A stretch of 27,772 nt of DNA from a virus, in IMG/VR virus record IMGVR_UViG_3300010412_000066, positions 1-27,772 of that record; one strand, 5' to 3'. Below, in pieces: positions 8,590-27,772 of the stretch (its first letter is position 1; every line of letters starts with the position of its first letter). The position numbers were made by a program, and so were the translations under genes. The notes beneath the pieces were generated by a model that was given only the letters and a program-made list of their open reading frames with translations, ran no database searches and was not told the origin of the DNA.

Positions 8590-8790
8590 ATGCTTATTAA
8601 GACTGCAGTTTGTGAAGAAGCAATTTTATGTAAGCAGTGCAGCAGATATCATGCGCCTAACGTCGACTGCACTAAGGTATTTACTGCATCTGATGAACCG
8701 TCCGTGAATGGCGATATGGGCGAGTCTATTAATAGGAACAGTTCAGATGTTACATCTTTTGGCGCAAAAGGAGTGTCAAATGAGGAATAA
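8590..8790 (+). CDS. Small protein with a possible zinc knuckle
   Basis: The start is placed at the ATG at 8590 (MLIKTAVCEE), which has GAGGA just upstream and is one base past the previous stop. An in-frame upstream ATG at 8563 lies inside the preceding gene and has no comparable ribosome site. The 66-residue product has C-x2-C and a further Cys (ILCKQCSRYH...DC), suggesting a minimal metal-binding site, then a polar tail. Its first residues MLIKT are identical to those of the protease/scaffold gene at 9250, which supports this start. The stop overlaps the next gene. The function is unknown. Confidence 0.65.
   Translation: MLIKTAVCEEAILCKQCSRYHAPNVDCTKVFTASDEPSVNGDMGESINRNSSDVTSFGAKGVSNEE
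8727..8734 (+). promoter_or_regulatory. TATTAATA element inside small gene, upstream of 8780 start
   Basis: CTATTAATA occurs 45 bases before the ATG at 8780. It is inside the coding region of the small preceding gene, so it may be coincidental, but it shares the leading C with three other copies in the window. Confidence 0.25.
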
Positions 8791-9238
8791 GTTTAGTTTT
8801 GGGGAGCTTAGCCATATTATAGATGCTTCCAAGAAGCCTGATGTTGTAAAGATTGCTTCTGGCGACGGTGATAATGCCCCACTAGCCGAAGCAATGGAAT
8901 CCGTCTGTAGAGTTGCAGATGCTCTAGACGAGATGGGTAAATCAGAGCTGGCCGATGAGCTTATGACATCCGCTCAGAGGTTGGTTGCTGAGAAGATTAA
9001 GATAGCAGAAGAGGAAGACGACGAAGAGACCGGCGAAGAGGGCGGCGAAGAGGTCGATGAGGTAGAGGAAGTTATGACTGTTAAGTGCCCCCATTGTGAG
9101 AAAGACTTTGAAGTCGTTGTCGAGTACGAGGACGGAGATCTAGAGGTAGAGACTAAGGAAGAAGAGAAGAAAGAGATAGAAGAGGGCAAGGAAGAGTCTG
9201 GCGAGGGACATTCTACAGAAGGTCTTGAGGGCCTATAA
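8780..9238 (+). CDS. Acidic protein with AD-LD hairpin motif and zinc-ribbon half
   Basis: The start is set at the ATG at 8780, with AAAGGAG at 8767-8773; an earlier in-frame start at 8708 has no such site and would extend through the previous gene. The product is 152 residues. Near residues 42-69 it carries one copy of the recurrent two-helix motif (VADALDEMGKSELADEL), followed by a very acidic Glu-rich run. Next come CPHCEKDF, a single CxxC pair resembling half a zinc ribbon, and a Glu/Lys-rich tail. The high acidity could mimic DNA or suit a scaffold-associated role, but no family is recognised. It lies immediately before the protease/scaffold gene. Confidence 0.8.
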   Translation: MRNKFSFGELSHIIDASKKPDVVKIASGDGDNAPLAEAMESVCRVADALDEMGKSELADELMTSAQRLVAEKIKIAEEEDDEETGEEGGEEVDEVEEVMTVKCPHCEKDFEVVVEYEDGDLEVETKEEEKKEIEEGKEESGEGHSTEGLEGL

Positions 9239-9249
9239 GAGAGTGAAAG

Positions 9250-12198
9250 ATGCTTATTAAAACAGGCGAAGCGGCTACTCCACAGCTAACCGTTATCAAT
9301 GCCGATGACGCTCTGAATAATCAGGCGATATCAGAGCGTTTCAGTGCGCTCGTTGAGAAGATAAAGTCTGTTGATGCTTCTGGCGGAGTACCGGTAGCCC
9401 CTTTCAAAAGCGATGATTTCCTCTACTTTAGAACGGCCATTATGCACGCCGCAGAAAAGTCCAATCTAGACGATAAAGGTGAAGTAGTAGGCGATGGCAA
9501 GTTCTTAGTAGAAAAGACAGCAGGAGACAAAGAAGTATGGAAGTGGGTATCCGATAAGGGCATTCATCCGTACATGAACTCAAACGGGGACATCTTCCCT
9601 GAAGACGAGCTAGTAAGGGCAGCTCCTACTTGGATTGGTAAGGGATTATATTGTAATCACCAGTCTTCCGACGTAGAGAAGCTGAGGGGAATTATTATTG
9701 ATACTCAGTACGATCCAAAGTCTAAAGCGCTATGGGCGTTAGTAGCTTTGGATAGGAAGAATTTCCCCATTTTGGCATCGCAAGTACAAAACGGTACCAT
9801 CCGCAATGTATCTATGGGCACCGCAGTAAAGCGGTCGTTTTGTACTCTGTGCGGCAATGAGGCGGTTATAGAAGCTGATTACTGTCCACACATTAAAGGC
9901 GGCATGAAGAATAAGATTGTGGACAATGGAACCGGCCGCAAGATTTTAGTTGGTGAAATTAACGTCGGTCTGAATGGGGTAGAGCTGTCCCTCGTATCCA
10001 TTCCAGCCGACGGTCAGGCGACTATAAGACACGTCTATGCCAGTCTTCAGTCGCAGTTCGACCAGATAAGAAAGGAAATCGACGACAACGGAACTAGTGG
10101 CGTTAAAGAGGCCACCCTTAAAGATATCAAGGAGACCCTGGACGCCGTGAAAGTTGCGATAGCACAGAAAGGCGATAATGAGATTATAGGAGGAACTTCT
10201 ATGGATAACAATTTGGAAAAGAGAGCTGCCGAGAGGCGCAAGGCGCTTTTGGCATATTTCCAGGGAACCGAGGAGCCCAAGCCTGGGCAGACTCAGTATC
10301 CCCCAGACCCGACAGAAATGCAGCTCAGAGACAAAGAGCTGGCTAAGGCCAAGAAAGAAGAGAATGAGACCGCCCCCAAGATGGGTGACAAGGGTACCGA
10401 TCAGAAGGTGCGTGAAGAGCAGCAGCGTGTAGTGGCTGAGCGCAAGGCAGAGCGCGAGCGCGTTCGTCAGGCTTACATGCAGGGCACTGAGGAGCCCAAG
10501 TCTCCTACTACCTATCCTCCAGACTCCATGGAGCAGGATCTTCGCAAGAAGGATGAGGCCAAGTTTACCTCTGAGGCTCGCGAGACTGGTGTTAAGCCCA
10601 CTGGTATGGCTGGTGATGATGAGACCATCAAGAAGAAGCTACAGCGTGCCAATTACATTGGTGCTAGGTTTACTTATGCCAAGAGCGAGGCTGGCGATGT
10701 AGACGCCGCCAACTCCTATTGGACTGTGTACGCCACCGATGAGGTAGATGCTCCGTTTAGTGATGATTCCGCTATCATGAAGGTAACTGCTGGTCAGGCG
10801 TATGGTTCCGATCTTCATAAGATTGCTTGCGACGAGGACGGTAATGAGGATCCCAATGGTCGTACTAACTGGGCATTTATGGCCAGCAAAGAGTACGGTC
10901 AGCAACTGATCGAGTTCATTAAGGCTAAGGGCGCTGACTATGCCATCGCTCAGTTTAAGAAGGTGGCTGAGATGCCTATGCCTGGCGCTACCGAGGGTCT
11001 TGGCGCAGAGCAGTCTGGTGCTGCCGAAGAGCCTCCTGCTGGTATCGAGGCTGGCCTTGGTGAGGAGCTTGGTGAGAAGACTGAGGAGTTCCCAGAGGAG
11101 CCCGGAGCGGATAAGTCCAAGGTAATGGAGCTCTTCGATGAGTTCGGTAAGGCCTTGAAAGAGTTTGTTGGCGGTGAAGAGCCGTTGACGGATGAGGATG
11201 CCGAGGCAGTCGATTCTGCTATCGAGGGAGCTGGCGAGGCCCCAGAGGCTCTTACTAATCCTCTCGCCCCGCCAGAAGAGAAGGAAGAGGCTATCGAGGG
11301 TCTTCCCAAGCCTGCATACGAGAAGATTGTCCAGTTTGTAAAGTATGCCAGGAAGAAGAAGGAAGACAAGAAGGAAGAGAAGGGTAAGAAGGAAGACAAG
11401 AAGGAAGAGAAGGGTAAGAAGGAAGACAAGAAGGAAGAAAAAGGTAAGAAGGAAGACAAGAAGGAAGAGAAGGCTGGGCCCAAGAAGGGTGTTTGCAAGG
11501 GCTGCGGTAAGCCTAACTTCCTTTGCAAGTGCAAAGATAAAGGTGCGGAGGCTGATATGGGTAATACTAAGATCGCAGAGCCTACGGGCAATGAGGTTAA
11601 GGACATTGCTGCTCCCGCCAACAACAGTGGCAAGCTAACTTCGCCCTCTGGCAATGAGATCAAGGATATCCCAGATGTCGTTGCTCCGTATCTCTCCGAT
11701 TCAGTAGAGAGTGATAATGTTGGCGGTCAGGATATGAAGGTCGAGTCTGTGACCGAGCAGCACAATAAGGATTTGGCTGCTGCCACTTCTAATCCTACTG
11801 GCGCCGAGGTTTCCGAGCAGAAGGCTGCTTCCGAGCAGTTCGCTGCTAAGGTCGGCGAGGCTATTACCGCAGAGGCACTTGAGCAGGCCAAGAACGTTGC
11901 GGTTGCCAAGATGAAGACTGCCTATGAGCTGGCTTCTGAGATGGCTGAGAAGGGCTATATCGGCGAGAACGATATCAAGTCAAAGGCTGAGGAATTCTAT
12001 GCTATGTCGGATGAGGCATTTAATTCCGTCAAGCGCGTTGTAGCTGGATTCCAGAGTGTGAAGAATGAGACCGTTAAGACTGCCAGTGCAGTTGCTTCTT
12101 TGGGCAACATCATCGGCGATCGCACTCTTCCATCTAAGGCGAGCGACAGCAAGACACTCGTCGATCATTTGTCTGACCCTAAGTTTGGGTGGCACTAA
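9250..12198 (+). CDS. Prohead maturation protease fused to scaffold
   Basis: This 982-residue fusion begins with a serine protease domain (about residues 90-265) of the phage prohead protease type. H137 (YCNH) and S188 (NVSMG) are the likely catalytic pair, and ELSLVSIPADGQATI is the conserved closing strand. A possible metal site (C198, C201, C212, H214) is inserted after the serine motif. From about residue 318 onward the protein becomes long, charged and scaffold-like, with two ~32-residue repeats, a globular segment near residues 460-575, acidic linkers, a Lys/Glu decapeptide repeat, a Cys knuckle (CKGCGKPNFLCKC) and a helical C-terminus. The protease would remove scaffold and trim capsid proteins during maturation. 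An internal start at 10201 probably also yields scaffold alone. A weak GAGAG site precedes the ATG. Confidence 0.88.
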   Translation: MLIKTGEAATPQLTVINADDALNNQAISERFSALVEKIKSVDASGGVPVAPFKSDDFLYFRTAIMHAAEKSNLDDKGEVVGDGKFLVEKTAGDKEVWKWVSDKGIHPYMNSNGDIFPEDELVRAAPTWIGKGLYCNHQSSDVEKLRGIIIDTQYDPKSKALWALVALDRKNFPILASQVQNGTIRNVSMGTAVKRSFCTLCGNEAVIEADYCPHIKGGMKNKIVDNGTGRKILVGEINVGLNGVELSLVSIPADGQATIRHVYASLQSQFDQIRKEIDDNGTSGVKEATLKDIKETLDAVKVAIAQKGDNEIIGGTSMDNNLEKRAAERRKALLAYFQGTEEPKPGQTQYPPDPTEMQLRDKELAKAKKEENETAPKMGDKGTDQKVREEQQRVVAERKAERERVRQAYMQGTEEPKSPTTYPPDSMEQDLRKKDEAKFTSEARETGVKPTGMAGDDETIKKKLQRANYIGARFTYAKSEAGDVDAANSYWTVYATDEVDAPFSDDSAIMKVTAGQAYGSDLHKIACDEDGNEDPNGRTNWAFMASKEYGQQLIEFIKAKGADYAIAQFKKVAEMPMPGATEGLGAEQSGAAEEPPAGIEAGLGEELGEKTEEFPEEPGADKSKVMELFDEFGKALKEFVGGEEPLTDEDAEAVDSAIEGAGEAPEALTNPLAPPEEKEEAIEGLPKPAYEKIVQFVKYARKKKEDKKEEKGKKEDKKEEKGKKEDKKEEKGKKEDKKEEKAGPKKGVCKGCGKPNFLCKCKDKGAEADMGNTKIAEPTGNEVKDIAAPANNSGKLTSPSGNEIKDIPDVVAPYLSDSVESDNVGGQDMKVESVTEQHNKDLAAATSNPTGAEVSEQKAASEQFAAKVGEAITAEALEQAKNVAVAKMKTAYELASEMAEKGYIGENDIKSKAEEFYAMSDEAFNSVKRVVAGFQSVKNETVKTASAVASLGNIIGDRTLPSKASDSKTLVDHLSDPKFGWH
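10201..12198 (+). CDS. Nested in-frame scaffold protein (internal start)
   Basis: The ATG at 10201 (residue 318 of the fusion, MDNNLEKRAAERRKA) has a near-ideal AGGAGG at 10188-10193, seven bases upstream. It falls exactly where the protease domain ends and the charged scaffold begins. The product would be 665 residues. The codon use supports separate high-level translation: soon after this point arginine is mostly CGT/CGC and Glu/Lys mostly GAG/AAG, unlike the protease half. A protease gene with a scaffold nested in frame is the arrangement known from lambda C/Nu3. Expression from this start is an inference. Confidence 0.72.
   Translation: MDNNLEKRAAERRKALLAYFQGTEEPKPGQTQYPPDPTEMQLRDKELAKAKKEENETAPKMGDKGTDQKVREEQQRVVAERKAERERVRQAYMQGTEEPKSPTTYPPDSMEQDLRKKDEAKFTSEARETGVKPTGMAGDDETIKKKLQRANYIGARFTYAKSEAGDVDAANSYWTVYATDEVDAPFSDDSAIMKVTAGQAYGSDLHKIACDEDGNEDPNGRTNWAFMASKEYGQQLIEFIKAKGADYAIAQFKKVAEMPMPGATEGLGAEQSGAAEEPPAGIEAGLGEELGEKTEEFPEEPGADKSKVMELFDEFGKALKEFVGGEEPLTDEDAEAVDSAIEGAGEAPEALTNPLAPPEEKEEAIEGLPKPAYEKIVQFVKYARKKKEDKKEEKGKKEDKKEEKGKKEDKKEEKGKKEDKKEEKAGPKKGVCKGCGKPNFLCKCKDKGAEADMGNTKIAEPTGNEVKDIAAPANNSGKLTSPSGNEIKDIPDVVAPYLSDSVESDNVGGQDMKVESVTEQHNKDLAAATSNPTGAEVSEQKAASEQFAAKVGEAITAEALEQAKNVAVAKMKTAYELASEMAEKGYIGENDIKSKAEEFYAMSDEAFNSVKRVVAGFQSVKNETVKTASAVASLGNIIGDRTLPSKASDSKTLVDHLSDPKFGWH
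10252..10563 (+). repeat. Two imperfect ~32-residue repeats in the scaffold
   Basis: Bases 10252-10347 and 10471-10563 encode related segments: AYFQGTEEPK..YPPDPTEMQLR and AYMQGTEEPK..TYPPDSMEQDLR. The repeats are conserved at protein level and diverged in codons. They lie at the start of the scaffold region and may be repeated docking sites; that role is inferred. Confidence 0.75.
11356..11475 (+). repeat. 4 x 30-bp tandem repeat (KKEDKKEEKG)
   Basis: Four consecutive 30-base units encode the decapeptide KKEDKKEEKG, with the last unit ending in Ala instead of Gly. The units are nearly identical at DNA level (a few silent changes in unit 3), which suggests recent expansion by slippage. The segment should form a highly charged helix or disordered spacer just before a Cys knuckle. 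Confidence 0.92.
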
Positions 12199-12212
12199 TT
12201 AGTATAGTGGCT

Positions 12213-12240
12213 GAGGGGAGGGGCTTAAGCCCCTCCCCTC
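12213..12240 (+). terminator. Perfect 28-base GC-rich palindrome after the scaffold gene
   Basis: The sequence is a perfect inverted repeat with 12-bp arms (GAGGGGAGGGGC) and a TTAA loop, in the 63-base gap after the scaffold stop. No T-run follows, so it is not a textbook intrinsic terminator. It may act as a partial terminator, an RNA-stability element or a processing site separating high scaffold expression from the genes downstream. Confidence 0.5.
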
Positions 12241-12261
12241 TCACAACTGCGGAGGATTATA

Positions 12262-12783
12262 ATGGATCTCTTAAAAGAGCTCGTCAAATTAGCGGATGAG
12301 CTGGATAAGCAGGGCCACACAGTGCTCGCAGACAAGATTGATTCTATTGTTAAGATGGCTGCGGAGAAGAAAGAGAAGGGCATGGGCGAACCAGTACTAA
12401 AGATGAAGGTGCGCAAGTCCGACGACGATGATGGTTCATATGACGTAACTGTATATGCTCCGTCTGGCCTTTCTCCGTATGATCCCGTTGTACACGCCTA
12501 TATCAAAAAGTATGGTCCATTCGGTGAGGACGGAGTTAATCTAGATTATTGTGAAACTCTAGCCAACTCTATGCCGCATGAGCCCAACATGTTTAGATAT
12601 AGGTTGCGCGGACCATCTGGACCAGGTAAGGGTCCTGCGATTGCCCTGCCCGCCGCCGCCGCTGCACTTCCAGCTATGTTAGGCGCGGATACAGTCGAGT
12701 CTTTACTCAAGATAGCAAATGAATTAGACAGCGCCGGGGCTTTAGACCTGGCAGATAAAATTGATTCTCTTTTGAAGCAGTAG
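12262..12783 (+). CDS. Protein with the AD-ID hairpin motif at both ends
   Basis: The product is 173 residues. The start is supported by GGAGG twelve bases or fewer upstream. Residues 3-33 (LVKLADELDKQG...LADKIDSIV) and the last 27 residues (LLKIANELDSAG...LADKIDSLL) are two copies of the same two-helix motif. Between them lies a ~75-residue apparently folded domain (about residues 45-118) with mixed charged and aromatic residues, then a Pro/Ala-rich linker. A protein with the same adhesive-looking element at both ends could act as a bivalent linker between capsid-associated components. That is inference; the family is not recognised. It follows the scaffold gene after a strong hairpin. Confidence 0.82.
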   Translation: MDLLKELVKLADELDKQGHTVLADKIDSIVKMAAEKKEKGMGEPVLKMKVRKSDDDDGSYDVTVYAPSGLSPYDPVVHAYIKKYGPFGEDGVNLDYCETLANSMPHEPNMFRYRLRGPSGPGKGPAIALPAAAAALPAMLGADTVESLLKIANELDSAGALDLADKIDSLLKQ

Positions 12784-12792
12784 GGAGATGAG

Positions 12793-13494
12793 ATGATCAG
12801 ACCTTTGGATGTCGAAGGTCTGCCGAGTGGATTGTGGAGTGTAGATCCAAACTGTCAGTTTCAGCCTGGACAAATACTCGGGCTGATCTCACTCGGCGGT
12901 GAAGTATTGATGAGCGTGTCAGACGGAACGACGATCCCTCCATACGGGATCGCCGACGACGTTAAGACGGTGGCGTTTACAAAGCCTTCGTTCAATGAGC
13001 GTGTCTTTGTCGTCCCGCCACCTCAGCTAGTAGCAGATGATGGCTATGGTCATCCTCAGCTAGTGTCCCCTGTGACCACTCGTTTAAAGGCATCCAGCAT
13101 CGTTTCTTCTTCATTTAGATCAGACGTAGATGTTATTCTTCATCCAATTAACGGTGTTGTAGAATTTCCAGCATTAACTCTTCTTAACTATGATACTCTA
13201 GGCGACGGTAATATGAATGCTTTGGTGGCCGTGGTATCATATACGTACGAGATAGCCGGTATACCTGGTGACGATACTACTAGGGGTAGTGGTAAGGTGA
13301 CTGTGTGGAATAGAAGAGGTGAGTATATAACCGATCAGTTTGATACGCTAGCTACTTACCCTCTTAATGCTCCTTTGTATTGCTGCAACGGTAAGTTCAC
13401 TACCACTCCTCCGTGTGAAAATGCTCCAGTAATCGCTATGGTAACCGGTCCGCCATCAACACTTACAGCTACTTTGCAGCTGTTGTGGTTCTAG
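12793..13494 (+). CDS. Candidate capsid decoration/accessory protein (paralogue 1)
   Basis: The product is 233 residues, with a GGGAGATGAG ribosome site before the ATG. The N-terminal part (PGQILGLISLGGEVL, then IPPYGIADD) has the look of a beta-rich phage virion surface protein. Residues 165-185 (GSGKVT, then W, G-Y-TD, F-DT) match the corresponding segment of the protein encoded at 16782. Both proteins end in an aromatic-rich strand (LLWF here). The composition is beta-strand-like, with few charged helices. Two adjacent cysteines (CC) and a CxxC-like pair lie near the C-terminus. Location upstream of the capsid gene fits a decoration or head-stabilising role; this is inferred from the paralogy and context. 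Confidence 0.75.
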   Translation: MIRPLDVEGLPSGLWSVDPNCQFQPGQILGLISLGGEVLMSVSDGTTIPPYGIADDVKTVAFTKPSFNERVFVVPPPQLVADDGYGHPQLVSPVTTRLKASSIVSSSFRSDVDVILHPINGVVEFPALTLLNYDTLGDGNMNALVAVVSYTYEIAGIPGDDTTRGSGKVTVWNRRGEYITDQFDTLATYPLNAPLYCCNGKFTTTPPCENAPVIAMVTGPPSTLTATLQLLWF

Positions 13495-13503
13495 GAGATT
13501 ATT

Positions 13504-14232
13504 ATGGCTGTAGATGCTAAAAAGCTAGCAGATGCCTTGGGTATAGCGCATATCCACGCCACTAATCTTGAGGATAATGTAGTTAATAATATCTTCGAGA
13601 CTCTTCGAAAGGCAGGGTTCAAGAAGGATAGCTTGTTGGCACAGGTAAAGAGATTCGTTGAGAGATGGCTTGGTGCAGTTGCTGAAAGGGCCCCGGCGTC
13701 AAATAGTCTAGACAAGACCAGGATCACTAGAATTATTAATAACAGGGATTATAGCCCTGCGACTCTTGGTGTTCTGTTGGACCAGGCACTATCTAGTTAT
13801 TTAGACCAAGATGATTTTTTGAAGAAAGATATAGCCGCCGCTGCAACCGGAAAGGGTCCGTCTGCTGAGGCCCCAAAGCCAACCGGCGGGGACAAGTATT
13901 CTGCCAAGATCGTAGTTACCCCAGCGTTCACAGGGGTGATGTCATCTGTTCTTAGTAGAGCATTGAGCACTTTAACCACGGCCATCAATGCAGAATTGAA
14001 GACTGGTATTATGGATTTCGTTACCTTTGACAAGTTGCTTCACAAAGTTGCGGCTCAGATGTCGGACGATTCAGCAAAGATATGGGATAGTGTTATAGAC
14101 GAATGGGCCAAGCGTGGTGAGAGAAGGGCTCAGATTGTAGACGCCTTAATCAAGTTGGCTAATGAACTAGACGATCGCGGCTTCAGTAAAGAGGCTGACG
14201 CAATCGATGACATTCTTAGGAAGGGGGTTTAA
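13504..14232 (+). CDS. Helical protein with C-terminal AD-ID hairpin motif
   Basis: The product is 242 residues; AGGAG lies upstream of the ATG. It is largely helical with a disordered Ala/Pro/Gly-rich linker around residues 110-130. The last 30 residues carry a clear copy of the recurrent motif (LIKLANELDDRG, SKEADAIDDIL). The gene ends two bases before the next start, and the next protein begins with the same motif, so the two genes carry motif copies at facing ends. A TATTAATA occurs inside this gene at 13734-13741. No known family is recognised; a virion assembly role is suggested by context. Confidence 0.8.
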   Translation: MAVDAKKLADALGIAHIHATNLEDNVVNNIFETLRKAGFKKDSLLAQVKRFVERWLGAVAERAPASNSLDKTRITRIINNRDYSPATLGVLLDQALSSYLDQDDFLKKDIAAAATGKGPSAEAPKPTGGDKYSAKIVVTPAFTGVMSSVLSRALSTLTTAINAELKTGIMDFVTFDKLLHKVAAQMSDDSAKIWDSVIDEWAKRGERRAQIVDALIKLANELDDRGFSKEADAIDDILRKGV

Positions 14233-14234
14233 TT

Positions 14235-16184
14235 ATGGCTCAAAGGGGCAATACTGCAGACTACGCAGACGCATTCGTGGAGCTATATAAAATAGCTGCC
14301 ATGCTAGATGTATGGGATAAGTGCAGGGAGGCTGAAGTCTTAACTGCCATATTGCATGACGACAACGATAAGTTGAAAAACTTATCTGTCAACAAGGCAG
14401 AGATGCTAGCGCTTCACAGCGAGATAATGTCTGCGTTAAAAGATGCCAACTGCCCCGATGGTGTCGTTTATGCGGTAGACGAGATCTTCAAAACCCCCCT
14501 TTCTACAGTAGGAGTCAAAGTAGGTCATCGTAAGTTGGCCGCGAAGACAAAGAAAAAGGAAGAGACGACCGTTGAAAAACTAAGTAGGGAAGTGAGTGAG
14601 AGGCCTAGAGAGTTGACCAGGCCGACCGAGACAGCTAAAATTAAACCAAAGCCGCCGGTTCCTTTCAGAACCAATCTGGATTACGGTGAGCCGATTCCTA
14701 AGTCTGAGACTTCAAGTGAGTATTTTGCCAAGCTTAATTTATCTTCCATGCCGGCCGAAGAACCACCAAAGACTGGTTATGACGGGCTGAACGATCTCTA
14801 TTCCAGAAAGCCAAATGAAGATGTAAATAAAAAGCGTTTCAGGCAGACTTCTCAGGGCCATAAAGAAGAGGGCGTACTCATAGTACCGGCGTATATGAAC
14901 AACGGCATTATGTACCGTGGCGATATGGTGCATATTATCTTAGAGAACATTGCTCGTCGCGATACCACCGGTTTATCTGTTTACGTCGGCGCCGTTCCTC
15001 TTAACAAAGAAGAGCTAAATAACATAGGCGACCTAGCTATGCGTCTCGTTATGAAGGATAACGATATGGTCGCGCAGAAGCTATCTGGTATTATCTTCTC
15101 ATCCATATACAAAATGGCATCAGACATGGATGCTGATCAAATTATGAAGCTACAAAAGACTGCGTATAATAACAATGCATTCGAGTCTTATGGCCAGGTT
15201 GACAGAGAAGTTCTTTATCCTGTCAGGCCAGAGTCTAATATTTTACAGTATGCTCATGATGATAAAATGATAAGCATCGATAGGCGCAGTCTATCAGGCG
15301 TTATTATGAGAGCAGACGTTAAAAACAAAGTGCTTACTAGACTATCTCTACAGCGTCCATTGGGAAAGACGGCTACAGAGTTGAAGGTTTATTACATCAA
15401 AATGATAGAGGCCGGCGGTGCGTACAAAGCAGCCCGTTTTAAGAAAGCCGTCAAAGAACTGTACAACGTTGATTGTGGCGAGTTAGATGACAAGATTATT
15501 GATATGGCCCATGAGAAGTCTGTTAAATTAGAAGATATTGAGAATGCCCTTTTCCCCACGCTCGATCATCAGCAGCAGATAGACGTTGATGCTGCTACCT
15601 CTCGTCCAGTAGGTGAGGTAAGTGATTCTCCAGTTCGTTTTGCATTTATTGATCGTGCCATTCTAATGGACAGGTATGTAACTGCAAAGCGTGAAAAGCA
15701 GAATACAGGAGATGAGGATTCAGACGATGGTGGTGAGGTACGAGAGAAATTCTTAGAGCTCCTCGGACCAGAATGTCCTCACGGGCAGCATGAAATTGAT
15801 GAGGAGTCAGAGGATGTTGGATCAGTCATCCCAGAGGGTGTACAGGTAGTCGAGCTGGGTGGGCCTAAGAGTAAGGAAGAGTCCAAGAATGTTTCCGTTA
15901 ATGTAAATACAGATCCGGACACAGGTAGGGTGAAGGTGTATCTTAATGGCTCTTTGGATAAGGAATTTGGTTCGATGGAAGAGGCCATTGAGTGGGCTAG
16001 TAAAGTGAGCCAGATCTTTAATAATGTGCTGGACTCATCTTCTAATGTGGTTGCATCTATAAGGTTCTCCGAGCTTTCTAAGCTTGCAACTGTATACAAT
16101 GGGTTCGTTTCATATCTAGTGAAGGTTGCGACATTCTCTCATAACATTAAAGAGATGTTGGGGTTGTTAAATGACATTGCATAA
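14235..16184 (+). CDS. Large unrecognised head-region protein with N-terminal hairpin motif
   Basis: The product is 649 residues. Residues 11-40 (DAFVELYKIAAMLDVWDKC, then REAEVLTAIL) match the recurrent motif. Residues 12-24 also align without gaps to the same residue numbers of the major capsid protein. A Lys/Pro-rich linker follows (about residues 105-150), then a mainly helical folded region (about residues 220-490). A strongly acidic segment with ECPHGQH (about residues 490-530) leads to a small alpha/beta segment near residues 555-590 and a helical C-terminus. It overlaps the next gene by 14 bases. The family is not recognised; a structural or scaffold-associated role is likely from context. 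Confidence 0.82.
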   Translation: MAQRGNTADYADAFVELYKIAAMLDVWDKCREAEVLTAILHDDNDKLKNLSVNKAEMLALHSEIMSALKDANCPDGVVYAVDEIFKTPLSTVGVKVGHRKLAAKTKKKEETTVEKLSREVSERPRELTRPTETAKIKPKPPVPFRTNLDYGEPIPKSETSSEYFAKLNLSSMPAEEPPKTGYDGLNDLYSRKPNEDVNKKRFRQTSQGHKEEGVLIVPAYMNNGIMYRGDMVHIILENIARRDTTGLSVYVGAVPLNKEELNNIGDLAMRLVMKDNDMVAQKLSGIIFSSIYKMASDMDADQIMKLQKTAYNNNAFESYGQVDREVLYPVRPESNILQYAHDDKMISIDRRSLSGVIMRADVKNKVLTRLSLQRPLGKTATELKVYYIKMIEAGGAYKAARFKKAVKELYNVDCGELDDKIIDMAHEKSVKLEDIENALFPTLDHQQQIDVDAATSRPVGEVSDSPVRFAFIDRAILMDRYVTAKREKQNTGDEDSDDGGEVREKFLELLGPECPHGQHEIDEESEDVGSVIPEGVQVVELGGPKSKEESKNVSVNVNTDPDTGRVKVYLNGSLDKEFGSMEEAIEWASKVSQIFNNVLDSSSNVVASIRFSELSKLATVYNGFVSYLVKVATFSHNIKEMLGLLNDIA

Positions 16185-16698
16185 GACCACGTCATCCCAA
16201 ATAGAGCGTGTGATATGCGGTGAGGAAGTAGAGGGTGGCAGTTATTTAGAGGAACCCAAAGAGCCAGGACTGCCAGGTATTTATGGCGAGATACGCGCAG
16301 TATACGCCATGTCAGTTAAGTATTCTGAAAATGTCGAAGTCTTTATCAAGCTAACAGAATCCATAAAAACAATTGTCGACCCACATATCAGAGCGGCCAT
16401 CTTAGAAAATATAAGCAGCGTTTTGAGCGAGATAGGTGTGTTGGCATCCCAAATCTTCCAGTCGGACGATGACATTCTAAAGGCGTCTGAGGTTGTTATC
16501 TCGGACAATATCATGTTGCCGACTATCAAATTGAGAAAAGCTGTAGTGGCTATGAAGCAGGAAGGCGGGGTTAGGCCCGCAGCCTTAGATAGGGCCGTAG
16601 CGATGATAGACAAGCTAATGGACGCTATGGATGTAAAGACACTCGGTATCGACGGTGACGCTCAGTATTCCGTCGTGGACAGAGATAGCACTAATTAG
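16171..16698 (+). CDS. Unrecognised helical protein
   Basis: The product is 175 residues. The ATG at 16171 lies inside the end of the preceding gene and has only a weak GGGG-type ribosome site, so translation is probably coupled. The N-terminal ~40 residues are polar and Pro/Gly-containing; the rest is amphipathic helices with regularly spaced hydrophobic residues, ending in a short polar tail. No motif or metal site is seen. It is the last gene before the 83-base gap preceding the capsid genes. Confidence 0.75.
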   Translation: MTLHKTTSSQIERVICGEEVEGGSYLEEPKEPGLPGIYGEIRAVYAMSVKYSENVEVFIKLTESIKTIVDPHIRAAILENISSVLSEIGVLASQIFQSDDDILKASEVVISDNIMLPTIKLRKAVVAMKQEGGVRPAALDRAVAMIDKLMDAMDVKTLGIDGDAQYSVVDRDSTN

Positions 16699-16705
16699 TG
16701 TTATC

Positions 16706-16713
16706 TATTAATA
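16706..16713 (+). promoter_or_regulatory. CTATTAATA element, candidate promoter for the capsid genes
   Basis: TATTAATA, preceded by C, sits near the start of the 83-base gap upstream of the two genes expected to be expressed most strongly. The distance from its end to the ATG at 16782 is 68 bases. The function is inferred from recurrence of the element in other gaps. Confidence 0.42.
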
Positions 16714-16734
16714 CTTTATGTTGTGTGTGATTTT

Positions 16735-16756
16735 GGGGATCACTTTGTTGATTCCC
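16735..16756 (+). promoter_or_regulatory. Leader hairpin before the capsid accessory gene
   Basis: GGGGATCA (16735-16742) pairs with TGATTCCC (16749-16756), giving an 8-bp stem with one G-U pair and a 6-base loop. It precedes a very strong ribosome site, AAAGGAGG at 16767-16774. It may stabilise the 5' end of the capsid transcript. Confidence 0.4.
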
Positions 16757-16781
16757 GGACTATTTCAAAGGAGGCAAACAC

Positions 16782-17474
16782 ATGCTGTATCTCTTCTACG
16801 AGGGAGCGCAGCCAATTGGGATCTTTGACTTCGATGTCGCATCGGAGCAGGTTCTTACTGTCGATGACGTGCAGGGCGGCATGATCGGCAAATTTGGCTC
16901 AGCTTCCGACACTTCATCCCCTACCATTCCCCTCGGTGATGGTTTCGATGAGTACGGGGCTAGTGCTGGTGCTTATGGCAACATCAAGACAACCATTATC
17001 CCAGCTACTACAGCCAACGATGTTTCTCCAGGCGTTGGTCCGTACTGCATTCTCGATGATGGTCACATTGGGTATGGTACGATGTTCGGTCACCAGTTTG
17101 GTCATGAGACTGGTAGCGATTTCAAGTATTATCATGCTTGGCGCGAAGGTAAGTTGGTAGGGCCCAACACCATCGCGGGAAGCGGTAAGGTAACCGGTTG
17201 GATTACTCCTGGTATCTATGGGACTGATTATTACGACACTTCCAGCATCACCGATACTGTAATCCAGGATCCTAACAACAACGGTCTAACCCCCGGTACT
17301 CCCCTTACGCTTAGTGCTGTAGCGACTTTAGGTCTAGGTGGCACTTCCTTCATAACTCAGGGCTGTTATTTTGTTTCGTTCCTTGGCGATCCTTCTTACG
17401 TATCTACCTCTTTCAATGGCGGCACGGTTGGTGGCGACACTGCTTACCCCGTTATGCTGTTCATGTGGAAGTAA
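16782..17474 (+). CDS. Candidate capsid decoration/accessory protein (paralogue 2)
   Basis: The product is 230 residues, preceded by AAAGGAGG seven bases before the ATG, the best ribosome site in the window and a sign of high expression. The protein is rich in Gly, Thr, Ser and aromatics, beta-like, with few Lys/Arg. Residues 133-153 (GSGKVT, then G-Y-TD, Y-DT) match the protein encoded at 12793 at the equivalent position, and both end in a hydrophobic aromatic strand (MLFMWK here). It is separated from the major capsid gene by only 20 bases, so the pair is probably co-transcribed and ends at the terminator at 18530. A shell decoration or cement protein is the most economical role. Confidence 0.75.
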   Translation: MLYLFYEGAQPIGIFDFDVASEQVLTVDDVQGGMIGKFGSASDTSSPTIPLGDGFDEYGASAGAYGNIKTTIIPATTANDVSPGVGPYCILDDGHIGYGTMFGHQFGHETGSDFKYYHAWREGKLVGPNTIAGSGKVTGWITPGIYGTDYYDTSSITDTVIQDPNNNGLTPGTPLTLSAVATLGLGGTSFITQGCYFVSFLGDPSYVSTSFNGGTVGGDTAYPVMLFMWK

Positions 17475-17494
17475 GGGATTAGGGAGAGAATACT

Positions 17495-18508
17495 ATGAAT
17501 AACAACATTAATGCTAACTCTCAGGTAGATGCGTTCAAGCAGTTGCTGAAATATGCAACCATGCTGTCCGAAGCCAAGGACAATCTTCCCAGCAATTTCG
17601 GTCTCCACGACGAGCCCACGTACTCTGAGTCAGAGAAGGAAGCCCTACTTAAAGAAGCCCTAGCCACTGATTCTGGCCGTGTCGCCCTCGGTCAGGCAAT
17701 GGCGAATCCTATCCGTCGTAACCTCGACTACCAAGGTGTTGGTCGTAAGGCCCTCATCGTTGATCCTCTTCCTCCTGGTGCTATCGCTGTGTACGATAAG
17801 GACATCGACGTTGCAGCTACGATTATCTCCAGCAACGGCGCTGCTCCAGAGTCCCGCGTATTTGGTGATAGGGTAAGCGTTCCCGAGTTCGAGGTTGTGT
17901 CCTATCCTACGGTTCGTATCGCTGAGGTCCGTAGGCGTCGTTTCAACGTTATTGACCGTGCGCAGCAGAAGGCACGTCAGGAAATCCAGGCTCAGGAAGA
18001 CGCTAACATCTTTGCCGCCCTGGATTTTGCTGCTGGCCAGGAGAACACCCCCGTTGCCATCACCACCGGCATCGAGGTGCCTGATCTCATCCAGATGAAG
18101 AAGCAGATCGATCGTTGGGACCTTTTGACGACTAAGTACTTCATGAACATCGAAGAGTTCACCGATATCCTCGGTTGGTACTCCCACAATGCTTCTGGGT
18201 ACGGCATCGACATGGTAACCCAGCGCGAGATCCTTCAGTCTGGTCTGTATGCCCGCATCTTCGGCGCTGACATCATCGTCAGCAAGATCGTTCCGAAGGG
18301 CACGCTATTCGCCACATCCGATCCAGAGTTCGTAGGCGTTATGCCCGTTCGTCAGGACATCGAGGTTCTTCCTGCCGACGAGCCTCGCCAGTTGAAGCTT
18401 GGTTGGGTTGTCAACGAGATCATCGGCGTTGGCATCGTGAATGGTCGCGCTGTTGCGAGCGGCACCAAGACCGGCGTGTATGATTATGCTGGTCAGGGCT
18501 CCATGTAA
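17495..18508 (+). CDS. Major capsid protein (HK97-type fold)
   Basis: This is the shell-building subunit. Of its 337 residues, the first ~65 are helical and polar and may be a scaffold-contacting arm. Residues 11-28 (VDAFKQLLKYATML) resemble the first helix of the recurrent two-helix motif. The core from about residue 70 (PIRRNLDYQG) has long Arg-rich and helical stretches (RIAEVRRRRFNVIDRAQQKA, then AQEDANIFAALD) typical of HK97-fold capsid proteins. Codons are strongly biased to C-ending and CGY forms, matching high expression. GGGAGAG precedes the start. A strong intrinsic terminator follows 21 bases after the stop. Processing by the protease at 9250 is expected, but the cleavage site is not evident. 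Confidence 0.9.
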   Translation: MNNNINANSQVDAFKQLLKYATMLSEAKDNLPSNFGLHDEPTYSESEKEALLKEALATDSGRVALGQAMANPIRRNLDYQGVGRKALIVDPLPPGAIAVYDKDIDVAATIISSNGAAPESRVFGDRVSVPEFEVVSYPTVRIAEVRRRRFNVIDRAQQKARQEIQAQEDANIFAALDFAAGQENTPVAITTGIEVPDLIQMKKQIDRWDLLTTKYFMNIEEFTDILGWYSHNASGYGIDMVTQREILQSGLYARIFGADIIVSKIVPKGTLFATSDPEFVGVMPVRQDIEVLPADEPRQLKLGWVVNEIIGVGIVNGRAVASGTKTGVYDYAGQGSM

Positions 18509-18529
18509 GTGAAGTCCGATTAGTAGCAC

Positions 18530-18562
18530 AAAGGCCGGGGCTTTGCCCCGGCCTTTTCTTTT
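18530..18562 (+). terminator. Strong intrinsic terminator after the capsid gene
   Basis: AAGGCCGGGGC and GCCCCGGCCTT form an 11-bp GC-rich stem with a TTT loop (18531-18555), followed by TTTTCTTTT. It lies just after the capsid stop. In the opposite direction only a short T-run follows, so it terminates mainly the plus-strand capsid transcript but could also affect the converging Nudix transcript. Confidence 0.95.
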
Positions 18563-18576
18563 AGCTCAATCAGTTT

Positions 18577-19101
18577 TTAGTCTAGATATTCAAGAAGGCG
18601 AATAAGGAGTGAATGAAGAATAGAGTTGTCACTCTTAACTATATCTCTCATAGATACAAACTTAGCATACGTTCCCTTCTCTCCGTCAGAGCCATCACCC
18701 TCTGCTTTTCCTGGGGTCTTGTCGCCTATGTCTACTGCAAATAGATGGCAAGTGGTATCCATTGCTTTAGACGGCCTAACTGTGCCGAGAGGTATAAGAT
18801 CTTCTGTGTCTATATCTATACCAGATTCCTCTTTCATCTCTCTAACTGCGGCTTCCCGTGGATCTTCTCCATCCTCGGCCATACCAGTCAGAGAAACTAA
18901 CTTTGTATCGTTATCTTGACATGGTACATTTTCAAATCTCCCGACGAATTTAATTCCGTCGTCAGTCTCAGTATATCCTAAGACAGCAACTAGAGTTCCA
19001 TTGCCACGTAATTCGCTGGCGAATATGTATCCGTCTTGCGTTTCAAACAACCCCAACCATTCATTGTCGCTATCATCTATCCTCTTCTTATTGCTGGCCA
19101 T
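18577..19101 (-). CDS. Nested in-frame Nudix-only product (internal start)
   Basis: An in-frame ATG at 19101 on the minus strand (residue 205, MASNKKRIDD) has AGGAG six bases upstream, at 19112-19108. It begins just before the catalytic domain and would make a 174-residue free Nudix hydrolase, a typical family length. This is the second case in the window of a good ribosome site exactly at a domain boundary. Use of the site is inferred. Confidence 0.55.
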   Translation of the reverse strand: MASNKKRIDDSDNEWLGLFETQDGYIFASELRGNGTLVAVLGYTETDDGIKFVGRFENVPCQDNDTKLVSLTGMAEDGEDPREAAVREMKEESGIDIDTEDLIPLGTVRPSKAMDTTCHLFAVDIGDKTPGKAEGDGSDGEKGTYAKFVSMRDIVKSDNSILHSLLIRLLEYLD

Positions 19102-19713
19102 TTTAGTCTCCTGTCGTTGTGATGCGGCTATTTCTTTAGCTGCTCCAGCTATTTCCTCTTGAGTAACTTGTGATGTTTGACCAGCCGGCTGGAATGGTTT
19201 TTCGGCTTCTCTGGCTTCCTGCCATTCGGCAGGGTTAACCGGAGCCATTAAGCTTTGCATTCTTTGTAGCCTTGGCCCCTTCAACTGCGTTGAAAATGGT
19301 TTTGTGGGTACCTTCATTACCGATCCAGGCTGAGGAGGCTTCGATGGTACAACGCCGACAGACTTGTTCCACTTGGCTATCTGATCTCCAAGAGTCTTTA
19401 CCTGGTTTAGCGCGTTGCCAATATCAGACGGTACATTGCCGCCAGCAGGCATTTTAGTGTTAATAATTGTAAGTATCTGCTTTAGCGGCATATCTATACG
19501 CTGGACGTAGTTCTTAATAGTGTCCAAATTTTGTGTGTTTTTGATCTGGTTTATTACGTTATATATCTGTTCGGTTTGTATACCCACACCAGTATTGGCC
19601 AATGCTGGGTTGTTTGCAAGCGTAGGCAAGAACTGAGATATCTGGTCTAAAAATGTGGGAACCGCAATATTGACTGGTTGTTTATCCGCTATAATAAATA
19701 ATCTATTGGGCAT
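18577..19713 (-). CDS. Nudix hydrolase with long N-terminal extension
   Basis: This is the only minus-strand gene. The product is 378 residues; GAGG lies 8 bases upstream of the ATG at 19713. The C-terminal domain has a complete Nudix box, G277-x5-E283-x7-R291-E292-M-x-E295-E296-x-G298-I299, which binds Mg and hydrolyses nucleoside-diphosphate-linked substrates. The substrate cannot be told from sequence. Residues 1-200 have no family I recognise: a helical region, then a Pro/Lys-rich linker (about residues 120-185), suggesting attachment to something else, possibly the virion. An internal start at residue 205 may give the Nudix domain alone. It converges on the capsid terminator and diverges from the gene at 19858. 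Confidence 0.93.
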   Translation of the reverse strand: MPNRLFIIADKQPVNIAVPTFLDQISQFLPTLANNPALANTGVGIQTEQIYNVINQIKNTQNLDTIKNYVQRIDMPLKQILTIINTKMPAGGNVPSDIGNALNQVKTLGDQIAKWNKSVGVVPSKPPQPGSVMKVPTKPFSTQLKGPRLQRMQSLMAPVNPAEWQEAREAEKPFQPAGQTSQVTQEEIAGAAKEIAASQRQETKMASNKKRIDDSDNEWLGLFETQDGYIFASELRGNGTLVAVLGYTETDDGIKFVGRFENVPCQDNDTKLVSLTGMAEDGEDPREAAVREMKEESGIDIDTEDLIPLGTVRPSKAMDTTCHLFAVDIGDKTPGKAEGDGSDGEKGTYAKFVSMRDIVKSDNSILHSLLIRLLEYLD

Positions 19714-19739
19714 AATAATACCTCATTTAAGTGAGATGG

Positions 19740-19747
19740 TATTAATA
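19740..19747 (-). promoter_or_regulatory. CTATTAATA element, candidate promoter for the Nudix gene
   Basis: Read on the minus strand the context is AACTATTAATACC, 26 bases before the Nudix ATG. Together with the copy at 19805 it forms a divergent pair in the 144-base gap between the oppositely oriented genes. Confidence 0.42.
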
Positions 19748-19804
19748 GTTACATATGAGTGGGAGACGTTGATTATTCTTTTAGCTTCCTAATTAACTTA
19801 CGAC

Positions 19805-19812
19805 TATTAATA
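19805..19812 (+). promoter_or_regulatory. CTATTAATA element, candidate promoter for the neck-region operon
   Basis: The context is CGACTATTAATAATC, 45 bases before the ATG at 19858. It is the first point after the capsid terminator where plus-strand transcription would need to restart. Confidence 0.42.
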
Positions 19813-19857
19813 ATCGGAGTTCAATATGACGGTAGTCTATCTGAAAGGAGAGAAGAC

Positions 19858-20406
19858 ATGAAACTGTATAAGAATGTAAGCAAGACACTATTATCTGTGA
19901 AGACGCCCAGACGTATGTACGTGGAACCTGGGATGATCATTGACGTGGATGCCTTGGGTGACATCAAGACGACAGACATCGCCATGTTCATTGATAGGGG
20001 AGCGCTGGTTTCTGTGCAGGCTACACACAGGAAGCCCGTCGATGAGAAGTCTAAGTTGGTTCCAAATAAGGGCAATGACCCGGTGACTAACGTTGTGGTT
20101 CAAGAGAACAAGACTGTTGTTGTTGAGGGTATTGTGCCGGACGATCCTGATTCTAGTATGAAGGTCGAGAAGGGTAGAGTATCAAAGTCTGGTTCGGCAG
20201 CTGCAGTTGTTTCCCCGCCACCAGATGATATGGCGGCCATCAACGCTACGCAGAATCAGAATGTAACTAAGGGCTCTGCATACGATGCCCTACCTCCGTC
20301 TGTCAAGGAAGACATTGCTAAGGCCGAGAAGGCGGTGGCTGCTAAAGAGAAGAAGGCAGAGGCTCCCAAGAAGAAAGCGACCAGAAAGCCGAAAGCTAAG
20401 AAGTAA
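19858..20406 (+). CDS. Unrecognised protein with Lys/Ala-rich histone-like tail
   Basis: The start is set at the ATG at 19858 with AAGGAG at 19845-19850. An upstream in-frame GTG at 19759 lacks a ribosome site and would read through the promoter-like region. The product is 182 residues. The N-terminal ~65 residues form a compact, beta-like domain (YVEPGMIIDVDALGD, then MFIDRGALVSVQ). A disordered middle leads to a Lys/Ala/Pro-rich tail (KKKATRKPKAKK) resembling histone H1-type nucleic-acid-binding tails. It opens the post-capsid operon; a head-completion or DNA-contacting virion role is plausible but not shown. Confidence 0.78.
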   Translation: MKLYKNVSKTLLSVKTPRRMYVEPGMIIDVDALGDIKTTDIAMFIDRGALVSVQATHRKPVDEKSKLVPNKGNDPVTNVVVQENKTVVVEGIVPDDPDSSMKVEKGRVSKSGSAAAVVSPPPDDMAAINATQNQNVTKGSAYDALPPSVKEDIAKAEKAVAAKEKKAEAPKKKATRKPKAKK

Positions 20407-20429
20407 GCCTCTAGTACTGGAGGTGTAAG

Positions 20430-21308
20430 TTGCCAATTTCTTTAGATCCAAAGCCTGGCGCTATAAGTGTTGAAAAAGTTACGTCTAAGCGCCGGAAGCT
20501 TGGGGACAACTGTGACCTGTCTAACGAGTATGTAGATGTAGGTCAAGTAAACTCATGCCCGACGTCCCCCTCCGGCCGCGATCATCAGATGCCAGGTTTC
20601 CAAAGAGATGTGTCTTGTAATAGTTGCGGTACAGTATTTTCTGTAACTCGCTATTACACCACTGGTGGCTTTAATACGGCTGTGTGCCCTACGTGTGGCA
20701 ACTCTGTCGGATATATGGGAGCCGATGGGACGTGCGGTTATCATACGTGCGGGGGTACTGGATGCCCGTCTCATAACGTCTGTCCCACAAAAAGAGTTAT
20801 AGATGAATGCGATCTGGAGATAATTAATGATCTAATATGCCAGATGCGAGCGGAGTTGAAAGACGGGAATACCCAGTGCTATGCGTTTTCAGCTGCTGAG
20901 CTTTCTGCTTTTCTAGACGCTTCTTTATCAAGGTTTAATGGTACTCCACATTTCACAAGCTTTACATGGAGAAATATAGACCTGCAAAAGTTTAGGTATA
21001 TCATAGTCGAGGGCGCTGTCTTATTGGCCATGAGCGCCCAGGTTCTCATAGAGGCTGGTAGGGAATTTACCATCAACGATAACGGGATAAGCTTTACTCC
21101 AGCCCAGGTATCCCAGGCATTAGCAGGGCAGTTCAGCGCAAGATATACTCAGTATAACACAGATTTGGATTTTATAAAGATTCATTTCAAGCCGTCCCCA
21201 GTTGGTGTTTTCTCGTATCAATCGTTGCTTGTGGGATCTGGTGATGCAGTTGGGGGCAATCCTGCGGTCTCAAAACTAAGACACCTTCGTGGTCGCAGAG
21301 TATTCTAA
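20430..21308 (+). CDS. Zinc-ribbon protein, possible head-tail connector
   Basis: It starts at TTG (20430) with GGAGG six bases upstream; no better start is in range. The product is 292 residues. A polar N-terminus leads to a cysteine-rich region: C63-x2-C66 and C86-x2-C89 form a zinc ribbon, and C102, C107, C112 and C118 could form a second site. The C-terminal domain from about residue 125 is helical and then mixed (AAELSAFLDASLSRFNGTPHFT, split here by position, residues ~148-170; later LLAMSAQVLIEAG). This resembles the style of small connector or neck proteins that follow capsid genes. Connector is a context-based guess; the metal site is clear. Confidence 0.8.
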   Translation: MPISLDPKPGAISVEKVTSKRRKLGDNCDLSNEYVDVGQVNSCPTSPSGRDHQMPGFQRDVSCNSCGTVFSVTRYYTTGGFNTAVCPTCGNSVGYMGADGTCGYHTCGGTGCPSHNVCPTKRVIDECDLEIINDLICQMRAELKDGNTQCYAFSAAELSAFLDASLSRFNGTPHFTSFTWRNIDLQKFRYIIVEGAVLLAMSAQVLIEAGREFTINDNGISFTPAQVSQALAGQFSARYTQYNTDLDFIKIHFKPSPVGVFSYQSLLVGSGDAVGGNPAVSKLRHLRGRRVF

Positions 21309-21318
21309 GGAGGGCGTA

Positions 21319-22314
21319 ATGTATGTAGTCGCCAAGAAAAAGAAATGGATGCAAGAAGCCGCTCCCAAAGGCAAGAAGAAGGGTTTATTGCACCGCAAGC
21401 TTAACGTGCCAGAGGGCGAGACCATTCCAAAGTCCAAGATACAATCGGAGATATCAAAGCTACAGAAAAAGCGCGACGCACGGAAAGACAAGAAGTTTAC
21501 TGAAGATGAGCTTACGTATTTTCGCCAGCTTCAGTATGCCATGAGAGGTCACAGCGGTAGCAAGAAAAAGAAGAGTGAAGTTATGGAGCTGATTATTAAG
21601 ACCGCTAATTCATTAGATGAGATGGGTCTTAGTAAAGAGGCAGACGTACTAGATGTCATACTCGATTATGTAACCGCTGGGCCTGTTGATGAAGGCATCG
21701 AGCGGATGGAGTCTTTGCCTGGGTATGGGCCGGTCGCCGATGTGGCTCGTGCAGTTTTGCCTGGGCAGGAGGAAAAATCTGAAGATCCCCTTAAGGGCAC
21801 AAAGAAGGACTTGGGTATTATAGGGGACGTAGCCAAAGTCCTTCTTACGACTAGACTTCCCAAGCCATCATGCAAGGAATGCGGTTCTAAATGCAAATGC
21901 ACTCCAGAAAAGAGTTGTAAATGTCAGACTTGCAAGAAGAAGATCGCTGGCGATTTTCCCAGACCAAACGAAACCAACTATCCGTCCGGCAGCGGTGATA
22001 CGCCAGAAAGCGCATCAAGAGATAATTTATTTGGTAAGGAAGTTGGAAAGGTGATGGCTGCTACTAATATTCCAGGACAGCCAGGCCAGCCCGGCGCTCA
22101 GCCGGCGGGATCTCAACAGCCTGGTGGCCAGCAGCAAGGGCAGCAGCCTGGTGGGCAGCAGGGTGGTCAAGAAAAGAAATGCCAGTGCGGACAGTCGTTC
22201 ACTTCATCTGATCCAAATCAGACAAAGTGTGATAAGTGCATGGGCAAGCAACCGCAGGGAAGCGCTCCTGCGGCTCAGGCTGAGGGCCAAGGTGGGAAGG
22301 CTGCAACGCAATGA
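21319..22314 (+). CDS. Basic multidomain protein with hairpin motif and zinc knuckles
   Basis: The start is at the ATG at 21319 with AAGGAGGG just upstream; a GTG at 21289 would begin inside the preceding gene. The product is 331 residues. The first ~75 residues are very basic (KKKKWMQEAAPKGKKKGLLH, then VPEGETIPKSKI), a peptide style I associate with environmental phage proteins. Bases 21580-21672 encode the recurrent motif (LIIKTANSLDEMG, SKEADVLDVIL). A Cys-rich knuckle (CKECGSKCKC, then CKCQTCKKK) follows. A Gln/Gly/Pro-rich disordered repeat and a last zinc ribbon (CQCG ... CDKC) end the protein. It may bind nucleic acid or bridge virion parts. The stop overlaps the next start (ATGA). 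Confidence 0.8.
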   Translation: MYVVAKKKKWMQEAAPKGKKKGLLHRKLNVPEGETIPKSKIQSEISKLQKKRDARKDKKFTEDELTYFRQLQYAMRGHSGSKKKKSEVMELIIKTANSLDEMGLSKEADVLDVILDYVTAGPVDEGIERMESLPGYGPVADVARAVLPGQEEKSEDPLKGTKKDLGIIGDVAKVLLTTRLPKPSCKECGSKCKCTPEKSCKCQTCKKKIAGDFPRPNETNYPSGSGDTPESASRDNLFGKEVGKVMAATNIPGQPGQPGAQPAGSQQPGGQQQGQQPGGQQGGQEKKCQCGQSFTSSDPNQTKCDKCMGKQPQGSAPAAQAEGQGGKAATQ

Positions 22315-27635: not shown

Positions 27636-27772
27636 TGGCACTTCCGGTGTCGATGGTACATCTGGTGTGGACGGTACCAGCGGTACGTCTGGTGTTGACG
27701 GGACGAGCGGTACTTCCGGTACGTCTGGTACATCTGGATCGTCTGGTACTTCTGGTGTCGATGGCACCAGCG
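27465..27772 (+). repeat. Collagen-like GTS/GVD triplet tract
   Basis: Nine-base-scale repeats encode Gly-Thr-Ser and Gly-Val-Asp triplets and run off the window edge. Serine codons vary among TCG, TCA, TCC, TCT and AGC while the protein repeat stays constant, so it is conserved at protein level. Gly-X-Y triplets can form collagen-like trimer shafts. Confidence 0.9.
27509..27764 (+). repeat. Perfect 111-bp direct repeat, copies 145 bp apart
   Basis: Bases 27509-27619 recur identically at 27654-27764. The 145-base offset is not a multiple of three, so the second copy is read one base out of frame. This marks the one-base indel between the copies. The identity across varied synonymous codons points to recent duplication or to an assembly artefact. 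Confidence 0.92.

Follow-up and report, generated by a model that had tools for sequence, protein, structure and literature searches.

In phage T4, several different internal proteins of one phage have a short capsid targeting sequence (CTS) in common. This sequence is enough to bring foreign proteins into the head, and T4-like phages are inferred to vary their packaged cargo by means of it (PMC9026906). The CTS requires about 10 residues at the very N-terminal end, and the prohead protease gp21 cleaves it off (PMC9026906). In the phiKZ-type phage SPN3US, the gp245 substrates carry N-terminal propeptides, which are present on many head and ejection proteins and for which a core-targeting role has been suggested; the propeptides of giant phages mostly span 111-254 residues (two span 20-24) and are cleaved (PMC10052503).

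The element described here is a helical hairpin, uncatalogued in the protein-family libraries searched and found on hundreds of otherwise unrelated huge-phage proteins. By analogy, it may work most like the T4 CTS, being likewise common to unrelated proteins of one phage. It differs from the CTS in its length of about 24 residues, in its two helices, in its N-terminal, C-terminal or internal location, and apparently in having no clip site specific to its N-terminal copies. Because it is not bound to the N terminus and no tag-specific cleavage signal was found, the hairpin is not classed as a T4-type CTS. It is likewise distinct from the giant-phage propeptides, since the hairpin profile matches nothing in the whole genomes of SPN3US, phiKZ and Goslar.

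Encapsulin cargo-loading peptides are short portable tags that dock diverse cargo to an HK97-fold shell. Most of them are extended peptides at the C terminus, whereas the present tag, compared by description only, is a folded hairpin at any position. The TPR hairpin has a similar helix-turn-helix length and a similar spacing of small and hydrophobic residues, but the conserved acidic positions of the present motif fall outside the TPR signature. Of the 26 Pfam families that match 132 tagged proteins at E<=1e-3, the 25 listed include no TPR model, and the hairpin usually occurs singly instead of in a tandem array.

Head module and hairpin copies of the window

The window, the whole analysed stretch of 27,772 bases, is IMG/VR record IMGVR_UViG_3300010412_000066. 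It encodes a head module with terminase, portal, protease-scaffold fusion and major capsid protein (Table 1). The capsid core is 53% identical to gp27 of phage G, which lacks the N-terminal extension. This extension spans about 45 residues (17495-17630), and in most contigs of the clade its sequence includes the conserved helix xALxQIVKYASIIE. The insert in the portal, at residues ~386-740, matches phrog_85, phrog_36001 and phrog_32482 (residues 386-738). The N terminus of the protease fusion follows a recurrent M-x(1-2)-F/I-K-T-A/G-like pattern, seen at 9250 and in relatives on L415, L125 and L179. Just after the capsid gene, a NUDIX hydrolase gene (18577-19713, PF00293) lies on the opposite strand. 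Further downstream, 22311-22787 resembles a Vsr/DUF559 endonuclease by eye, with no Pfam match at E 0.01, and the last ORF (27440-27772), which runs nearly to the end of the contig, contains collagen-like GTSGTSGVD repeats, for which PF01391 scores below the cut-off.

Table 1. Head genes, tagged proteins and hairpin copies of the window, with the evidence for each
Feature	Position	Strand	Evidence
Terminase large subunit	2654-4642	+	phrog_675, E 2e-63
Portal with intein-like insert	4652-7486	+	phrog_16240, E 3e-50
Tagged protein 1; motif in N-terminal half, one CxxC ribbon, acidic tail	8780-9238	+	ORF; L001 homology for start
Hairpin copy 1, VCRVADALDEMGKSELADELMTSAQRL	8900-8983	+	Leave-one-out E 4.6e-5; window-excluded profile E 1e-5
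Head maturation protease fused to long scaffold-like region	9250-12198	+	phrog_18299, E 9e-16; phrog_2774, E 1e-21
Tagged protein 2; motif at both ends, beta-rich middle domain	12262-12783	+	AlphaFold2 model
Hairpin copy 2, ELVKLADELDKQGHTVLADKIDSIVKMA	12277-12360	+	Leave-one-out E 8e-8; predicted helices 3-16, 20-38
Hairpin copy 3, SLLKIANELDSAGALDLADKIDSLLKQ	12697-12780	+	Leave-one-out E 1e-6; predicted helices 142-158, 161-172
Tagged protein 3; C-terminal motif	13504-14232	+	Syntenic proteins of L001 and L004 match significantly only around motif
Hairpin copy 4, DALIKLANELDDRGFSKEADAIDDILRKGV	14140-14229	+	Leave-one-out E 3e-8; window-excluded profile E 3e-12
Doubtful degenerate copy near N terminus of 14235-16184	14265-14357	+	Missed by leave-one-out and by other-genome profile
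Major capsid protein	17495-18508	+	phrog_2522, E 2e-72; tblastn; alignment
Tagged protein 4; mid-protein motif, cysteine-rich and P/G/Q-rich downstream	21289-22314	+	ORF; CxxC pattern
Hairpin copy 6, VMELIIKTANSLDEMGLSKEADVLDVILDYV	21580-21672	+	Leave-one-out E 5e-8; window-excluded profile E 2e-9

The original prediction placed six copies of a two-helix motif in five proteins of this region. Strings of the expected form lie in frame at all six ranges. In a leave-one-out scan, in which a profile from five copies was sought in all 84 six-frame window ORFs of at least 60 aa, five copies are recovered at E 5e-5 to 3e-8, and the best stretch outside the copies reaches E about 5. The remaining copy, at 14265, is missed, so the secure tally is five copies in four proteins plus one doubtful copy, on which the fifth protein (14235-16184) depends. 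Its orthologues in L001 and L004 (LHKIATLLRKYDKNAEATALKAI and LHRIATVLKEYDKSVEADALKAV) are degenerate too, and it is at best a degenerate relic. At the DNA level, the window contains four matches to a pattern for A[DN]xLDxxGxxxxADx[hydrophobic]D, against none in 100 dinucleotide shuffles.

Structure prediction supports the two-helix form: an AlphaFold2 model of 12262-12783, built with only three sequences, gives a helix-turn-helix for both copies at a local pLDDT of about 70-80. A low-confidence model of L028:1199-2449, a tagged protein encoded two genes upstream of a capsid gene, likewise shows the motif as two helices beside a long low-confidence stretch. No significant Foldseek match to the 12262-12783 model was obtained, and no relatives in cultured phages were found for 12262-12783, 14235-16184, 12793-13494 or two tagged proteins of other contigs.

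The first tagged gene most likely starts at 8780, as judged from its opening MRNKFSFGEL, conserved in L001:1074-1484, and not at 8708; a Zn-ribbon hint in its product (PF23454) lies below the cut-off. Directly upstream of this gene, at 8726, sits CTATTAATA, which occurs five times in the window (0.27 expected; other sites include 16705, 19740 on the minus strand and 19804). In related contigs, the regions upstream of genes are about fivefold enriched in CTATTAATA or its variant TATTAATAT, and the element is possibly a phage promoter. It was rejected as a promoter particular to tagged genes, since the enrichment concerns genes generally, and the late-promoter candidate TATAAATA was set aside as well, showing no enrichment upstream of tagged genes.

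Spread, modularity and resemblance within genomes

On 80 contigs encoding relatives of the window capsid, the six-copy profile matches 22 stretches at E <0.005 and none in reversed or shuffled decoys. Iteration, seeded with the window copies only and extended to added regions around further matches, yields 301 copies in 271 non-redundant proteins from 101 phage contigs, and no reversed decoy falls below E 0.1 (best E 1.5). As the profile is trained iteratively on the same loci, statistical weight is placed on the decoys, the leave-one-out scan and the window-excluded profile. A handful of members with low scores are probably false positives, such as a weak match within an Erf protein on the GC-rich contig L207. 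The consensus reads [LI]-[IV]-K-[LI]-A-[ND]-x-L-D-x-x-G-[LF]-x-[KE]-[EL]-A-D-x-[LIV]-D-x-[ILV], with its A, L, D, G, A and D each at least 93% conserved. Of the 301 copies, 139 are N-terminal, 50 of which start exactly at residue 5; another 49 lie at the C terminus and 113 inside the protein. A single copy is present in 244 of the 271 proteins, two in 24 and three in 3.

The motif was also sought independently of the capsid. Searches with motif-only peptides or alignments were unsuccessful because these are too short or too variable; a degenerate DNA pattern, run through public viral and bacterial collections, worked instead. The profile confirms the motif in 73 of the 80 viral loci listed and in none of the 80 bacterial loci listed, most of which are GC-rich chance matches. 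A 76-sequence profile, which does match in viral records, finds nothing in 615 bacterial genomes (20 with chance pattern matches, and 296 and 299 of two phyla) and no hairpin in phage G, Rctr197k, Tunturi_5, LR745208, T4, phiKZ, SPN3US, PaBG or Goslar. The profile thus passes over random helical and bacterial proteins, as the prediction had required of a genuine family. The motif alone led to 44 contigs; the phrog_2522 capsid is encoded on 15 of them and the phrog_16240 portal or the phrog_675 terminase on 12 others, which, together with the phage specificity, ties the motif to one broad lineage of large phages. Its presence is patchy: two contigs of 87.6 and 95.9 kb carrying this capsid hold no copy in the profile scan.

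That the motif belongs to no named family, as first proposed, is borne out by searches of Pfam, PHROGs, NCBIfam and PDB. Among the 25 families listed for each of the three family libraries, none matches more than 2 of the 132 tagged proteins; in PDB, the top chain for the hairpin profile scores E 7.3. No description of the hairpin was found in the open-access literature searched, a body outside which most subscription papers and preprints lie.

The carriers differ widely. With the motif masked, single-linkage BLAST clustering gives at most 161 families, 133 with a single member; some would merge if remote homology were counted, and the numbers vary with BLAST thresholds, with ORFs called mechanically on contigs that are in many cases fragments. 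Several tagged proteins, unrelated after masking, share a contig (19 profile matches in G046, 11 in G012). In L120:1900-5445, L399:9674-13744 and L129:12389-18685, consecutive genes each open with the hairpin and are unlike one another downstream; the L399 and L120 runs, of seven and five closely successive tagged genes, are candidate cargo arrays. The C-terminal copy of 12262-12783 is missing from its L001 and L004 orthologues. For 13504-14232 and its syntenic partners, which lie between genes of 63% and about 40% identity, significant matching is confined to the hairpin region, which makes the tag more conserved than its carrier. Together with the up to 161 masked families and the free choice of position, these cases strongly support the proposed portable tag on unrelated proteins.

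Copies on unrelated proteins also resemble each other within a genome. The likeness at variable positions is 1.355 for pairs from the same contig vs 0.879 for pairs from different contigs, 11 SD above label permutation, and control stretches outside the motif in the same proteins show no within-contig difference. The synonymous-codon identity of the matched copies is near random (0.452 observed, 0.403 expected), and pairs whose codon identity does not exceed expectation still show the excess (1.15, 95% interval 1.05-1.24). Near-random codons combined with this likeness indicate that most copies are old and held by selection, although some are recent and near-identical (26/26 codons in L399). 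The simplest reading of both data sets is a shared partner fitted by all tags of one phage; duplication of intermediate age within genomes could explain part of the resemblance. A second recurrent element, a C-terminal tail (D/K)RIxKLAxLLSxEF...RR, occurs in seven proteins of L115, L117, L212 and L232, all of them also hairpin-tagged, and has no reversed-decoy matches.

A proposed docking tag and the destination of its carriers

The proposed explanation treats the self-contained hairpin as a portable docking tag, fused at the N terminus, at the C terminus or in a linker, all copies of which in one phage would bind a common partner. As the motif is in no bacterial genome tested, this partner is probably phage-encoded. 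While the head assembles, its portal, protease-scaffold core or shell would capture the tagged proteins, which would then travel inside the particle, to serve as minor structural parts or to be released as cargo at infection. That the hairpin is a portable docking tag is held with high confidence. Loading into the virion, which we infer from cargo and gene placement, has about an even chance, and the explanation as a whole, with docking tag, common phage partner and most likely head loading, is as apt to be right as wrong.

The prohead or virion destination, still a prediction, is consistent with the genomic data. Among the matches listed for 19 long contigs, with approximate capsid positions, 33 of 81 copies lie within 20 kb of the capsid gene against 15.9 expected, a roughly twofold enrichment, but more than half lie further off. 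Within the head cluster, some tagged genes lie between those for protease and capsid, and two tagged proteins upstream of a capsid gene (L034:3037-6684 and L049:3703-6819) contain endolysin-like regions. Elsewhere, the tag is found on HExxH proteins read as metallopeptidases, on a GDSL esterase with a peptidoglycan-binding region and, by eye, on an M15-peptidase-like protein (L399:9904-10935). The wall-active enzymes and the head-cluster placement favour particle loading. Other carriers include a CCA-adding enzyme with a C-terminal tag, a DnaJ protein and a 2H-phosphodiesterase-like protein (L193:9447-9998) with a weak Pfam match to tRNA_lig_CPD, reminiscent of the anti-CBASS enzyme Acb1. The tagged genes of L232 sit among NusG-like and deaminase-like genes, as judged by eye. 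The CCA enzyme, DnaJ and the remote accessory clusters leave room for a destination outside the virion.

The same hairpin could dock its carriers to something that the phage builds inside the infected cell but outside the virion, for instance an enzyme hub or a compartment for replication or assembly, a reading to which we give a lesser but appreciable probability. It would accommodate the many copies in accessory regions far from head genes, the neighbours in L232, and the CCA nucleotidyltransferase and DnaJ, which have no obvious virion role. The 88 and 96 kb contigs that carry the capsid without a copy, and the lack of the hairpin in phage G, the closest cultured capsid relative, weigh against the preferred explanation. 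The enrichment around capsid, portal and terminase genes, the tags between protease and capsid genes and the peptidoglycan-active cargo fit the virion better. Matching within genomes is equally expected if the tags must fit one another, and homotypic packing could knit heterogeneous proteins into a matrix with no separate receptor, as the 27 of 271 proteins with two or three copies might suggest. This is nevertheless unlikely, given the single copy in most carriers and a pattern of strongest conservation that includes the acidic D at profile columns 8, 17 and 20, in both helices, for which self-packing has no obvious need.

Patchy presence, free position and some near-identical recent copies would also result from a mobile module that behaves as a neutral domain insertion, passes between linkers by recombination and has little or no shared function. 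Its residues persist despite near-randomised codons, however, and the tag outlasts its carrier; both point to purifying selection on the tag and make a neutral module improbable. A chance likeness to ordinary amphipathic hairpins or TPR-like repeats is scarcely credible: the spacing L-A-x-x-L...G-x4-A does resemble that of a single TPR hairpin, but the Pfam families listed for the tagged proteins include no TPR, and chance is ruled out by the leave-one-out scan, the clean reversed decoys, the DNA shuffles and the empty bacterial loci and genomes.

For the preferred reading, a docking tag most likely serving the head, the capsid N-terminal extension was the best partner candidate. Its helix IVKYASIIE resembles helix 1 of the hairpin (hhalign P 0.002, probability 12%). 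The extension was rejected as a receptor or half-copy because extension and tag do not go together: G024 carries the extension without a tag, whereas G038 and G045 carry tags without the extension. A K-x-A protease site after the hairpin gained no support as a processing site of N-terminal tags. A pattern of this kind trails many copies, internal and C-terminal ones included, and so probably marks where helix 2 ends. In untagged proteins, N-terminal K-x-A is slightly above background (2.9% vs 2.0%), and we know of no cleavage consensus for this clade.

Meaning for huge phages

In a wider and more tentative reading, which we consider somewhat short of an even prospect, the folded hairpin on well over 100 kinds of protein would act as a general zip-code system in a lineage of uncultured huge phages, choosing the structural parts, cell-wall enzymes, proteases and other effectors that travel in the virion and reach the host, with the code tuned in each phage lineage. 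Even if the destination is not the virion, a tag on unrelated proteins, matched within genomes, points to an undescribed hub that the phage encodes. Should it be a loading tag, one profile could nominate the packaged and injected proteins of a whole uncultured group of huge phages, and hundreds of proteins of unknown function would become testable virion cargo. The hairpin would then also offer a modular, position-independent means to put chosen proteins into very large phage heads.
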